Source: Alphaproteobacteria bacterium (GTDB taxonomy: Bacteria > Pseudomonadota > Alphaproteobacteria > ATCC43930 > CGMCC-115725). From it: a stretch of DNA of 35,603 bases. The DNA lies in assembly GCA_030041385.1 (NCBI GenBank), contig JASHNY010000017.1, positions 1 to 35,603 of the forward strand, read 5' to 3'. Below, piece after piece: positions 20,532 to 23,618 of the stretch (position 1 is the stretch's first letter; the number at the start of each line of letters is the position of its first letter). The notes beneath the pieces were generated by a model. The model saw only the letters and a program-made list of their open reading frames with translations, did not search any database and was not told the origin of the DNA. A program made the translations under genes and the position numbers.

Positions 20532-20633
20532 TGCCGACCGCGGGTTGCGTCGAATGATAAAGCAAGGGCCGGATAGAGCGGGAATGAGGCCTGGCCCATT
20601 CTCCTTGCCATGACGATGTCGAGGAGACGGAGG

Positions 20634-21698
20634 ATGTTGGACCAGGAGCAATGCTGGGCGGCGGTGGTCGCCCATGACGCCAGCCAGGACGGCGGGTTCT
20701 TCTATTCGGTCAGGACGACCGGGGTCTATTGCCGCCCGGGCTGCGCCTCGCGCCAGCCTTTGCGCAAGAACGTGGCGTTTCACGAAACCGCGGCGGCGGC
20801 CGAAGCGGCAGGGTTCCGGCCGTGCAAGCGCTGCCGGCCCAACGAGGGGTCGCCGGCCGACCGCCACATCGCCGCGGTGGAACGGGCCTGCGCGGTGATC
20901 CGCGCACGCGACACCTTGCCGACCCTGGCCGAACTGGCCGAGGCGGCGCATGTCAGCCCGTTTCATTTCCACCGCATGTTCAAGGCGGTCACCGGCACGA
21001 CCCCGCGCGACTGGGGCCGGGCCTATCGCCTCGGCCGTTTCGCCGCGCGGCTCGACGCCGGCGACGGGATCGCCGCGGCGACCTATGCCGCCGGGTTCGG
21101 CGCCAGCTCGCGGGTCTACGAGGCGGCGCCGGCGGCGCTCGGCATGACCCCGGCGGCACGCCAGCGCGGCGGCAGCGGCGAGACGATCCGCTACACGATC
21201 GTCGATACGCCGGTCGGCTGTGCGATCGTCGCGGCGACCGCGCGCGGTATCTGCATGACCGCGCTCGGCGACGACCGCAAGGCGCTCGAGGGGGAATTGC
21301 GCCGGCGCTTCCCGGCGGCGCTGATCTGGCCGGCCGATGCGCAGCTGGCCGACTGGGCCGGGCGCATCGTGCGCTTTGTCACCGCGCCCGACACCCAGCC
21401 CGACCTCCCGCTCGACATTCGCGGCACCGCATTCCAGGCGCAGGTGTGGCGGGCATTGCAAAAAATTCCGCCCGGCCGCACCGCGAGCTACAGCGACATC
21501 GCCGCCGCGCTCGGCCAGCCGCGGGCCGTGCGCGCAGTCGCCGCTGCCTGCGCCGCCAACAAACTGGCATTGCTGGTGCCGTGCCACCGCGTCGTCGGCA
21601 AGGACGGCGACCTCACCGGCTACCGCTGGGGCCTCGACCGCAAGCGGGCGCTACTGGAGCGCGAGCGGGACGCAGCGGCAACCGCGGCGGCGGAATAG
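20634..21698 (+). CDS. ada: Ada, bifunctional DNA repair methyltransferase and regulator
   Basis: A 354-residue protein, the same length as E. coli Ada. The N-terminal zinc domain has Cys33, Cys37, Cys64 and Cys67 (VYCRPGC, CKRC); Cys33 is the equivalent of the residue that takes methyl groups from phosphotriesters. An AraC-type helix-turn-helix follows (PFHFHRMFKAVTGTTPRDW). The C-terminal O6-methylguanine transferase domain has RGTAFQAQVWRAL and the acceptor Cys317 in PCHRVVGKDG, followed by LTGYRWG. I chose ATG 20634 over 20610 because GAGGAG (20621-20626) lies seven bases upstream. Methylated Ada is expected to activate its own gene and neighbours; the 2OG oxygenase gene lies 63 bases downstream. 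Confidence 0.93.
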   Translation: MLDQEQCWAAVVAHDASQDGGFFYSVRTTGVYCRPGCASRQPLRKNVAFHETAAAAEAAGFRPCKRCRPNEGSPADRHIAAVERACAVIRARDTLPTLAELAEAAHVSPFHFHRMFKAVTGTTPRDWGRAYRLGRFAARLDAGDGIAAATYAAGFGASSRVYEAAPAALGMTPAARQRGGSGETIRYTIVDTPVGCAIVAATARGICMTALGDDRKALEGELRRRFPAALIWPADAQLADWAGRIVRFVTAPDTQPDLPLDIRGTAFQAQVWRALQKIPPGRTASYSDIAAALGQPRAVRAVAAACAANKLALLVPCHRVVGKDGDLTGYRWGLDRKRALLERERDAAATAAAE

Positions 21699-21712
21699 GC
21701 AGGCCGCGCGTG

Positions 21713-21812
21713 CTTCGAGGCGGCGCGCTGCGCACGCCTCCTCAGCATGAGGAAAATTTCCATGAGCCTTGTCGCTCATCCTGAGGTGCCCGGCGCAGCC
21801 GCGCCTCGAAGG
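21713..21812. repeat. Inverted pair of dispersed palindromic repeats over a gene start
   Basis: A unit reading CTTCGAGG...CTCCTCAGCATGAGG (21713-21752) is followed, after 22 bases, by an inverted copy CTCATCCTGAGG...CGCCTCGAAGG (21775-21812). The pair can form a large hairpin. It belongs to the same family as the copies at 22611-22743. The ATG used by the oxygenase gene (21762) lies in the 22-base loop, and the GAGGA before it lies at the foot of the loop. Confidence 0.8.
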
Positions 21813-22514
21813 ACGCAAATCGATCCGGCCGCGATCGATTGGGCCAGGATCGCCGCCGCTCTCGACGCAGAGGGTTATGCGACGGTCCCGGCGCTGCTCG
21901 ATGCGCAGGAGTGCCGGGACCTGGCGGCGCTTTACGACGCCGAGGGCGCGTTTCGCAGCCGCGTCGTCATGGAGCGCCACCGCTTCGGCCGCGGCGAATA
22001 CAAATACCTGCGCTACCCGCTGCCGGCGGCGGTCGCGGCGTTGCGGCAGGGGCTTTATCCCGGTCTCGCCGCGATTGCCGAGCGCTGGCGCCGGGCGCTC
22101 GGCGAGGACGGCGGGTTTCCGCCATCGCTCGACGCCTACCTCGAAATCTGCCACGCGGCCGGCCAGTCCCGCCCGACCCCGCTGATCCTCAAATACGAGG
22201 CCGGCGACTACAACTGCCTGCACCAGGATTTATACGGCGCGCTGGTGTTTCCGCTGCAATTGACCGTGCTGCTCAGCGATCCCGCGGCGGAATTTACCGG
22301 TGGCGAGTTCCTGCTGGTCGAGCAGCGGCCGCGTACCCAGTCGAAGGGCGAGATCGTGCCGCTGCGGCAGGGCGAGGCGGTGATCTTTCCGGTGCATCAC
22401 CGCCCGGTTTTCGGCACGCGCGGCGCCTACCGCGCGGTGATGCGGCACGGGGTCAGCCGGGTGCGCTCCGGTCGCCGCTTTACCCTCGGCATCATTTTCC
22501 ACGACGCGGCGTGA
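21762..22514 (+). CDS. 2OG-Fe(II) oxygenase (COG3826-type)
   Basis: A 250-residue dioxygenase using 2-oxoglutarate, iron and O2 to hydroxylate or demethylate a substrate. The iron ligands are His154 and Asp156 (LHQDLYG) and His229 (MRHGVSRVRSGRR), with an arginine in the RSGRRF segment as likely 2-oxoglutarate ligand. The first 18 or so residues (VAHPEVPGAAAPRRTQ) are encoded by a dispersed DNA repeat, and family-like sequence begins only near IDWARIAAALDAEGY. No alternative ATG, GTG or TTG occurs in frame between the repeat and that point, so the start is repeat-supplied. ATG 21762 is preferred to 21747 because GAGGA precedes it by eight bases. It is next to ada, which suggests a role in alkylation damage, unproven. 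Confidence 0.82.
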   Translation: MSLVAHPEVPGAAAPRRTQIDPAAIDWARIAAALDAEGYATVPALLDAQECRDLAALYDAEGAFRSRVVMERHRFGRGEYKYLRYPLPAAVAALRQGLYPGLAAIAERWRRALGEDGGFPPSLDAYLEICHAAGQSRPTPLILKYEAGDYNCLHQDLYGALVFPLQLTVLLSDPAAEFTGGEFLLVEQRPRTQSKGEIVPLRQGEAVIFPVHHRPVFGTRGAYRAVMRHGVSRVRSGRRFTLGIIFHDAA

Positions 22515-22532
22515 ATGTCGGACCGCTTCCGT

Positions 22533-22565
22533 CTCGGCCGCAGGCGGGCGGGACGCCCGCGTTCC
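22533..22565. repeat. Dispersed repeat copy (family seen again at 30963)
   Basis: A 33-bp GC-rich unit with the core CAGGCGGGCGGGACGCC just after the oxygenase stop. It matches 27 of 33 positions with the unit at 30963-30995, which lies inside the 3' end of the G3E GTPase gene. It is non-coding here. Confidence 0.7.
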
Positions 22566-22610
22566 ATTTTCCGCGATGCGGGGTGAACGAGAACGGCACC
22601 ACCACGCCCC

Positions 22611-22743
22611 TCATCCTGAGCGCGAGCGCAGCGAGCAGTCGAAGGACGCACCGCGGTTGGGCTCAAGCGTCCTTCGAGACGGCGCTCCGCGCCTCCTCAG
22701 GATGAGGCTTCGAGACGGCGCTCCGCGCCTCCTCAGGATGAGG
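22611..22743. repeat. Cluster of palindromic repeats incl. perfect 36-bp tandem copy
   Basis: A unit starting CTTCGAGACGGCGCTCC and ending CTCAGGATGAGG occurs twice without change at 22672-22707 and 22708-22743. A related copy in the opposite direction (CCTCATCCTGAGCGCGAGC to TCGAAGGACGC) lies at 22611-22649. This is the intergenic repeat family also found over the oxygenase start. Together with the elements on either side it fills the 309-bp gap between oxygenase and livF, which holds no gene. Confidence 0.85.
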
Positions 22744-22766
22744 TTGGATGGAGAACGGCGTCACCC

Positions 22767-22798
22767 ACGCCCCTCATCCTGATCAGGATGAGGGGCGT
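22767..22798. terminator. Perfect 32-bp palindrome between convergent genes
   Basis: ACGCCCCTCATCCTGA followed at once by its exact reverse complement, centred on GATC at 22781-22784. It looks like two ends of the CTCATCCTGAGG repeat family joined head to head. It lies 26 bases beyond the livF stop and in the path of transcripts from the oxygenase gene, so it may act as a bidirectional transcript end; there is no T tract. Confidence 0.5.
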
Positions 22799-22823
22799 CA
22801 GCGGCCGCGTCGGCAACTGTGCT

Positions 22824-23618
22824 TTACGACAGCCAGCGTTTGCGACGGCGGTAGTGCTTGGTATCGCGGTAGGATTTGCGCGTGCCCGACTCGTTGAGGC
22901 CGAGATAGAACTCCTTGATGTCGGAGTTCTGGCGCAGCGCCTCGGCCGGGCCTTCGAGCACGATGCGGCCGTTTTCCATGACGTAGCCGTGGTCGGCAAT
23001 GGCGAGCGCCAGCGCCGCGTTCTGCTCGACCAGTAAGACTGTCAGCTTCTGCTCTTCCTTGAGGCGGCGGACGACCCCGAAAATCTCCTCGACGATCATC
23101 GGCGCGAGCCCGAGCGAGGGCTCGTCGAGGAGGATCACCTTGGGGTTCGACATCAATGCCCGGCCGATCACCAGCATCTGCTGCTCGCCGCCCGACAGGT
23201 AGCCGGCGATGTGCTGGCGGCGCTCCTTCAACACCGGAAAGGTGGCGTAGGTGCGCTCGATCCCGGCGCGGATTTCGCCGAGATCGTGGCGGGTATGGGC
23301 GCCGGCGACGAGGTTTTCTTCGACCGTCAGGTTCTCGAAGGTGCGCCGCCCCTCGAACACCTGGACGATGCCGCGCTTGACGACCTCGTGCGGCTGCAGG
23401 CGGTCGAGCCGCACGCCGTCGAGTTCGACGCTGCCTTTCGTTACCTCTCCGCGCTCCGCATGCAGCAGGCCGGAAATCGCTTTCAGGGTCGTGGTCTTGC
23501 CGGCGCCGTTGGCGCCGAGGAGGGTGGTGATCCGCCCCTCCTCGGCGGTCAGCGACACGCCCCGCAAAACGAGGATCACGCCGTCGTAGACGACCTCGAT
23601 GTTGTTGAGCGCCAGCAT
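22824..23618 (-). CDS. livF: Branched-chain amino acid-type ABC transporter ATPase LivF
   Basis: A 264-residue ATP-binding subunit on the cytoplasmic face of the importer. Walker A is LLGANGAGKTTTLK, the Q-loop region lies before RGIVQVFEGRRTFENLTVEENL, the signature is LSGGEQQ, Walker B is VILLDEPSLGLAP, and the switch segment is LLVEQN. The start at 23618 gives the conserved MLALNNIEVVYDG beginning. The C-terminus has an unusual basic tail (TRKSYRDTKHYRRRKRW) seen in a Rhodospirillales-type subgroup. It is the last gene of the transporter operon, 40 bases after livK. Confidence 0.92.
   Translation of the reverse strand: MLALNNIEVVYDGVILVLRGVSLTAEEGRITTLLGANGAGKTTTLKAISGLLHAERGEVTKGSVELDGVRLDRLQPHEVVKRGIVQVFEGRRTFENLTVEENLVAGAHTRHDLGEIRAGIERTYATFPVLKERRQHIAGYLSGGEQQMLVIGRALMSNPKVILLDEPSLGLAPMIVEEIFGVVRRLKEEQKLTVLLVEQNAALALAIADHGYVMENGRIVLEGPAEALRQNSDIKEFYLGLNESGTRKSYRDTKHYRRRKRWLS

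Follow-up and report, generated by a model that had tools for sequence, protein, structure and literature searches.

A dispersed palindromic repeat pair as the probable source of the ribosome-binding site, start codon, and N-terminus of an ada-linked 2OG-Fe(II) oxygenase gene

A head-to-head pair of dispersed palindromic repeat units has probably been inserted at the junction between an ada-type gene and a 2OG-Fe(II) oxygenase gene of an alphaproteobacterium, where it would supply the latter with a new ribosome-binding site, start codon, and N-terminus; sequence comparison points to the same event in at least three other genes. The junction lies within the window, i.e., the whole 35,603-nt stretch of contig JASHNY010000017.1 that was analyzed, and its features are listed in Table 1. 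According to Pfam profile matches, the ada-type gene encodes the Ada zinc-binding, AraC HTH, and O6-methylguanine methyltransferase domains, while the oxygenase matches the PF09859 profile over its full length (positions 1–172 of 172, 263.7 bits vs. a cut-off of 26.2).

The oxygenase frame is closed upstream by the TAG of ada itself (21696–21698). All in-frame starts located 5′ of the conserved domain (ATG 21747, ATG 21762, and GTG 21786) fall within the repeat pair, and the next ATG, GTG, or TTG is encountered only 153 nt past the repeat end (about 21815–21818), already inside the conserved oxygenase domain. ATG 21762, which is situated 64 nt 3′ of the ada stop and is separated by 8 nt from the GAGGA at 21749–21753, is the most likely start judging by the sequence; GAGG, AGGA, or GGAG precedes 52 of the 90 predicted ATG starts of the window genome vs. 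25.2 in shuffles. Initiation at GTG 21786 or at a non-standard codon, e.g., the ATC at about 21820, which follows the AAGGA at the unit tip, is also conceivable. From ATG 21762 to 21815 there are 18 repeat codons (MSLVAHPEVPGAAAPRRT), which specify the repeat-encoded stretch MSLVAHPEVPGAAAPR; the right unit is translated in the oxygenase frame and forms part of the N-terminus, and the residues conserved among relatives begin at most about nine codons 3′ of the repeat. Direct reading of the sequence is thus in agreement with the first-pass annotation, which had placed all usable in-frame starts of the oxygenase inside an inverted pair of palindromic repeats and had assigned residues 1–18 to the repeat. 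The same annotation put ATG 21762 in the loop of a hairpin and GAGGA at the loop edge; the ATG does lie in the short inter-unit spacer, and the picture is refined in that ATG 21747 and GAGG belong to the left unit.

Table 1. Features of the ada–oxygenase junction and genes with a putative repeat-supplied start
Feature	Position	Strand	Basis or remark
ada-type gene, upstream neighbor of the oxygenase gene	20610..21698	+	Pfam PF02805, PF12833, PF01035; stop TAG 21696-21698
Left repeat unit, outer end approximate	21709..21752; core match 21714-21751	+	Pattern match, compared with other copies
In-frame ATG within left unit, without Shine-Dalgarno-like sequence 5′ of it	21747..21749	+	Sequence
GAGGA, Shine-Dalgarno-like; GAGG is the left unit's own end	21749..21753	+	Sequence, other copies
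Inter-unit spacer	21753..21774	+	Sequence
Most likely start codon, ATG in spacer	21762..21764	+	Sequence
2OG-Fe(II) oxygenase, PF09859 Oxygenase-NA (case 1)	21762..22514	+	Profile match and relatives
Right repeat unit, inverted, outer end approximate	21775..21818; core match 21775-21810	-	Pattern match
In-frame GTG within right unit, alternative start without usable Shine-Dalgarno	21786..21788	+	Sequence; pick of a simple codon-based caller
Further repeat copies 3′ of the oxygenase gene: inverted partial 22609-22649, tandem direct 22672-22707 and 22708-22743	22609..22743		Pattern match
Class III CoA-transferase, L177 (case 2)	contig 207 of window genome		PF02515 position 1 = residue 32; first later start GTG at residue 35
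urtB-like permease, G005, L250 (case 3)			Signal peptide directly after element
Membrane protein, G007, L287 (case 4)			First helix directly after element

The unit, described by the pattern TTCGAGRCN{8,34}CTCAGSATGAG, is found 50 times (26 + 24 on the two strands) in the 4.39-Mb window genome, while the reversed control pattern gave 0 + 0 matches; both arms at the oxygenase gene are among these 50. There are 20 paired head-to-head cores in the window genome and, in the forward orientation, 209 in 17 of the 39 genomes of the family, with no control matches in either search. No overlap with predicted ORFs was seen for 48 of the 50 units of the window genome. Being a short palindrome with many dispersed, mainly intergenic copies and head-to-head dimers, the repeat resembles repetitive extragenic palindromes (REPs). 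CGTC is present inside the unit (CGTCTCGAAGGACGC), though not clearly as a terminal tag of the GTAG/CGTC kind. As for a RAYT association, no repeat unit was found in the 4-kb stretch surrounding the sole Y1_Tnp (RAYT-like) gene of the window genome (L188, contig 25, 705–1028). This missing link does not exclude the CGTC class because no transposase is reported for CGTC repeats in PMC3733652.

As a class, the repeat pairs carry GAGG followed by ATG 9–12 nt later on both strands far above chance. With an ATG required in the spacer 4–10 nt after GAGG, the pair core gave 185 strand matches (88 + 97) in 15 of the 39 family genomes, and without this demand 412 (209 + 203) in the 39 genomes, the two patterns differing slightly in the longest spacer allowed. 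Among 314 sides examined, 217 have a spacer ATG 4–11 nt after GAGG, the commonest distances being 10 and 11 nt, vs. 38.1 expected from shuffled spacers, in a set biased by 100 loci and a few of 33 later ones that were picked by a spacer-ATG pattern; the other later loci and the window genome's own dimers were not picked by ATG.

Homologs of the oxygenase are present in 34 of the 61 genomes searched and, at 1e-40, in 26 of the 39 within the family. Thirty loci, including that of the window, were examined together with 80 from named genomes (the best 80 of 562). The homolog alignment mostly starts around residues 27–35 of the window protein, and homologs often begin 5–15 codons before a conserved IDW motif. 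The repeat-encoded residues were not seen in the 29 relatives or in the best 80 of the 562 loci; the same N-terminal residues encoded by unrelated DNA, a sign of a native start, were sought in this set, and none were seen. In 15 of the 30 loci ada lies directly upstream, and 11 of them have an in-frame oxygenase start, chosen by the analyst among the in-frame codons of each relative, that overlaps the ada stop by 1–17 nt. The loci without such an overlap are the window, L006, L008, and L019; L009 is counted among the 11 despite its lengthened junction, and L025, whose truncated ada was missed by the search, overlaps by eye too.

The ada stop lies 162 nt from the conserved LDAEGYA anchor in the window vs. 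49–61 nt in L002, L004, L011, and L012, the four ada-linked relatives in the tree clade of the window (support 94/96). Subtraction of the element of about 110 nt leaves 52 nt, which falls within the range of these relatives. Counted from the anchor, the ada stop falls in frame 2 (mod 3) at seven of the overlap junctions and in frame 0 in the window, so that an old start in the end of ada would be out of the oxygenase frame. The nearest relatives share no more than 74% identity with the window oxygenase, none of them being a close strain with an empty site. Taken together, the absence of repeat residues in homologs and the start–stop overlap at ada-linked loci, revealed by the alignment that had been proposed as a check, support the earlier idea that a mobile or dispersed repeat has replaced the native start region.

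The following course of events is the most probable. A head-to-head pair of REP-like units of about 110 nt (21709–21818) would have entered the ada–oxygenase junction, at which the oxygenase start had originally overlapped the last nucleotides of ada. Because the spacing changed by a length not divisible by three, the old start would have been put out of the oxygenase frame. Translation would now begin at ATG 21762 in the spacer, with GAGGA of the left unit as the ribosome-binding site, and reading through the right unit would add an 18-residue N-terminal extension to the protein presumably produced. The repeat pair would serve as a portable start, with GAGG and an ATG 9–12 nt later available on both strands.

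The recurrence of this arrangement was examined at the same set of repeat-pair sides. The unit end was recognized at 258 of the 314 sides, and at 61 of them a coding frame is open from the element. In four genes, there is no ATG, GTG, or TTG between the element and the conserved coding sequence, and in all four the spacer ATG is in frame, vs. 5 of the 57 other sides (9 of 61 overall; hypergeometric 2.4e-4); it should be noted that this group was picked post hoc by coding score plus homology and that possession of a spacer ATG was the selection criterion for 100 of the loci. Each of the four has GAGG, a gap of 9 to 11 nt, an in-frame spacer ATG, and 18–20 repeat-encoded residues; the gap is 10–11 nt in three of them, i.e., slightly long. 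The CoA-transferase gene L177 has a codon score near zero (0.4), and this case depends on homologs: in its relatives L335–L338 (about 77% identity), WAGPLxG is preceded by GTG or TTG, and the element is absent. Among the 20 dimers of the window genome, which were not chosen by ATG, two show putative start capture. As the assemblies are drafts, an error in the native start of any single gene is conceivable.

A possible fifth case, the urtB-like gene of G006 (L370, contig 261, around 1219–1270), has a repeat pair at its 5′ end in a second species besides G005. It is ambiguous: the spacer ATG is in frame, yet TTG and ATG are found within the signal peptide, and because of a degenerate unit end the locus is outside the 61. 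Several other candidates were rejected. The aroC-like gene L180 gives the impression of starting in the repeat, yet an ATG of its own lies downstream; the ksgA-like L293 has its own AAGGA and TTG, the proB-like L279 a TTG 10 nt past the element, and the regB-like L228 GGAGG and GTG; the frames of L178 and L399 are antisense to better genes; and L222 offers a good ATG past the second of its elements. Such gene names come from reading the translations unless a Pfam match is cited. Two dnaE2-like insertions were left out as internal. In this connection, a DNA polymerase III alpha-type (dnaE2-like) gene in L285 (G007, contig 320) harbors two in-frame repeat pairs, with element ends at 428 and 2147 and no stop introduced.

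The repeat might alternatively represent an untranslated leader, with the real start just after it being a non-standard codon, such as the ATC mentioned above, or a native ATG that was mutated or misassembled, so that the repeat residues would be an annotation artefact. Most copies are indeed extragenic and often lie just 5′ of a native start, as the 48 units outside predicted ORFs and the aroC-like gene illustrate; the position of homolog starts shortly before the IDW motif fits as well, and many N-terminal REPs may be extragenic according to PMC3733652. We nevertheless regard this explanation as unlikely, given the 153 nt without ATG, GTG, or TTG past the element and the need for the same accident in three more genes, all four having an in-frame spacer ATG. 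Even less probable is that the element broke translation and that the oxygenase gene is an early pseudogene, open only by chance. The ada overlap is gone, and intergenic distances of about 20 nt nearly abolish translational coupling, as reported in PMC10666635. However, the 232 post-repeat codons are intact with no internal stop, the Pfam score exceeds its cut-off (263.7 vs. 26.2), and the better matches among family relatives share 62–74% identity over nearly the whole domain.

A regulatory role of the hairpin as an RNA switch gating oxygenase translation, which the first-pass annotation had raised, appears improbable. The 151-nt leader is very stable (−79.5 kcal/mol vs. −62.0 ± 4.0 for dinucleotide shuffles, z = −4.4), and the Shine-Dalgarno sequence and AUG, located in the apical part of the fold, are partly paired (mean unpaired probability 0.29 and 0.31, respectively). 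Yet all copies of the repeat pair share such stability, and opening of the initiation site costs 14.6 kcal/mol vs. a mean of 13.7 (sd 4.2) for the 90 predicted ATG starts of the window genome, 40% of which are as costly or costlier. The other three candidate starts are more structured (20.9, 18.4, and 22.4 kcal/mol, with 7%, 16%, and 3% of starts as costly), none being out of range. Since the opening cost is average for the genome, hairpin gating receives no special support; the loss of start–stop coupling with ada and the acquisition of a new independent start by insertion of the repeat pair are more likely consequences.

A search of 21600–22850 against Rfam gave RF00166 as the best match, below threshold (27.5 bits vs. 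a gathering score of 44) and on the downstream copies, not on the leader. The tandem copies 3′ of the oxygenase gene (22681–22799) accordingly bear a weak resemblance to the RsmZ sRNA family. CUCAGGAUGAG resembles a CsrA-type GGA hairpin, but regulation of this type was dropped from consideration, CsrA being found in 0 of the 39 family genomes.

Among known systems, Rickettsia palindromic elements (RPE) are comparable in that a palindromic repeat is inserted in frame in protein genes, N-termini included. RPE are known mainly as in-frame insertions, not as start donors; they occur in a different lineage, and their sequence appears to differ from that of the window repeat. The GTAG- and CGTC-tagged REPs in ORFs (PMC3733652) are also short, dispersed, mostly intergenic palindromes forming head-to-head dimers, some of them translated. 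REP hosts named there include DNA-repair genes and dnaE2, similar to the DNA-repair-type oxygenase and the dnaE2-like gene of G007 described here, and rickettsial RPE-1 N-terminal proteins are said there to be expressed. The same paper considers most N-terminal REPs to be probably extragenic and describes REPs as a frequent source of stop codons; its main text does not contain "start" as a whole word. Unlike those REPs, the repeat pair considered here appears to supply a Shine-Dalgarno sequence and a start codon to genes without another start. QMITEs of Coxiella burnetii (PMC5896051), small non-autonomous repeats, likewise overlap ORFs and confer residues, but in the example of EnhC it is the C-terminus and stop that the repeat contributes, and the main text of that paper contains neither "start codon" nor "N-terminal". 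Br-REP1 and Br-REP2 of Bradyrhizobium are alphaproteobacterial REPs as well, transcribed in 3′ UTRs; their consensus sequences differ by eye from the window repeat, and the part of PMC5082802 consulted describes no translation role for them.

REPs inside ORFs are known, while a REP pair repeatedly donating a ribosome-binding site and start codon was not found described in the titles and abstracts listed by searches of open-licence PubMed Central articles. Translation of 5′-end REPs has so far been seen mainly as a matter of annotation, and four genes that lack an alternative start and share the in-frame Shine-Dalgarno and ATG arrangement make it directly testable. According to the present data, a repeat of non-coding appearance may relocate start codons, alter N-termini, and disrupt translational coupling within operons. 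A more far-reaching possibility, which we consider doubtful, is that the repeat pair acts as a bidirectional portable initiation cassette: frames would exit through the units, so that an insertion at the 5′ end of a gene is rescued rather than lethal. This might be one reason why the element persists, and start capture might have occurred repeatedly in the family, uncoupling neighboring genes and adding N-termini of 18–20 residues.

The ada–oxygenase junction carries different palindromic repeats in L006, L008, L009, and L015, as if it tolerated insertions well. In L009 (G007), the ATG overlapping ada is retained, and the reading frame continues across a different repeat; in L015 (G031), where the start overlapping ada is a GTG, the N-terminus includes another repeat-like stretch, and in L006 and L008 the repeats lie just 5′ of the oxygenase starts. 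On the tree, the presence of a repeat at the junction requires four label changes, no better than shuffles, and the starred branches force only two. Copy number was counted for the L008/L009 type only: this GCGGGAGAGGGYGCCGA-type repeat is dispersed in the respective genomes, with 3 and 8 matches.
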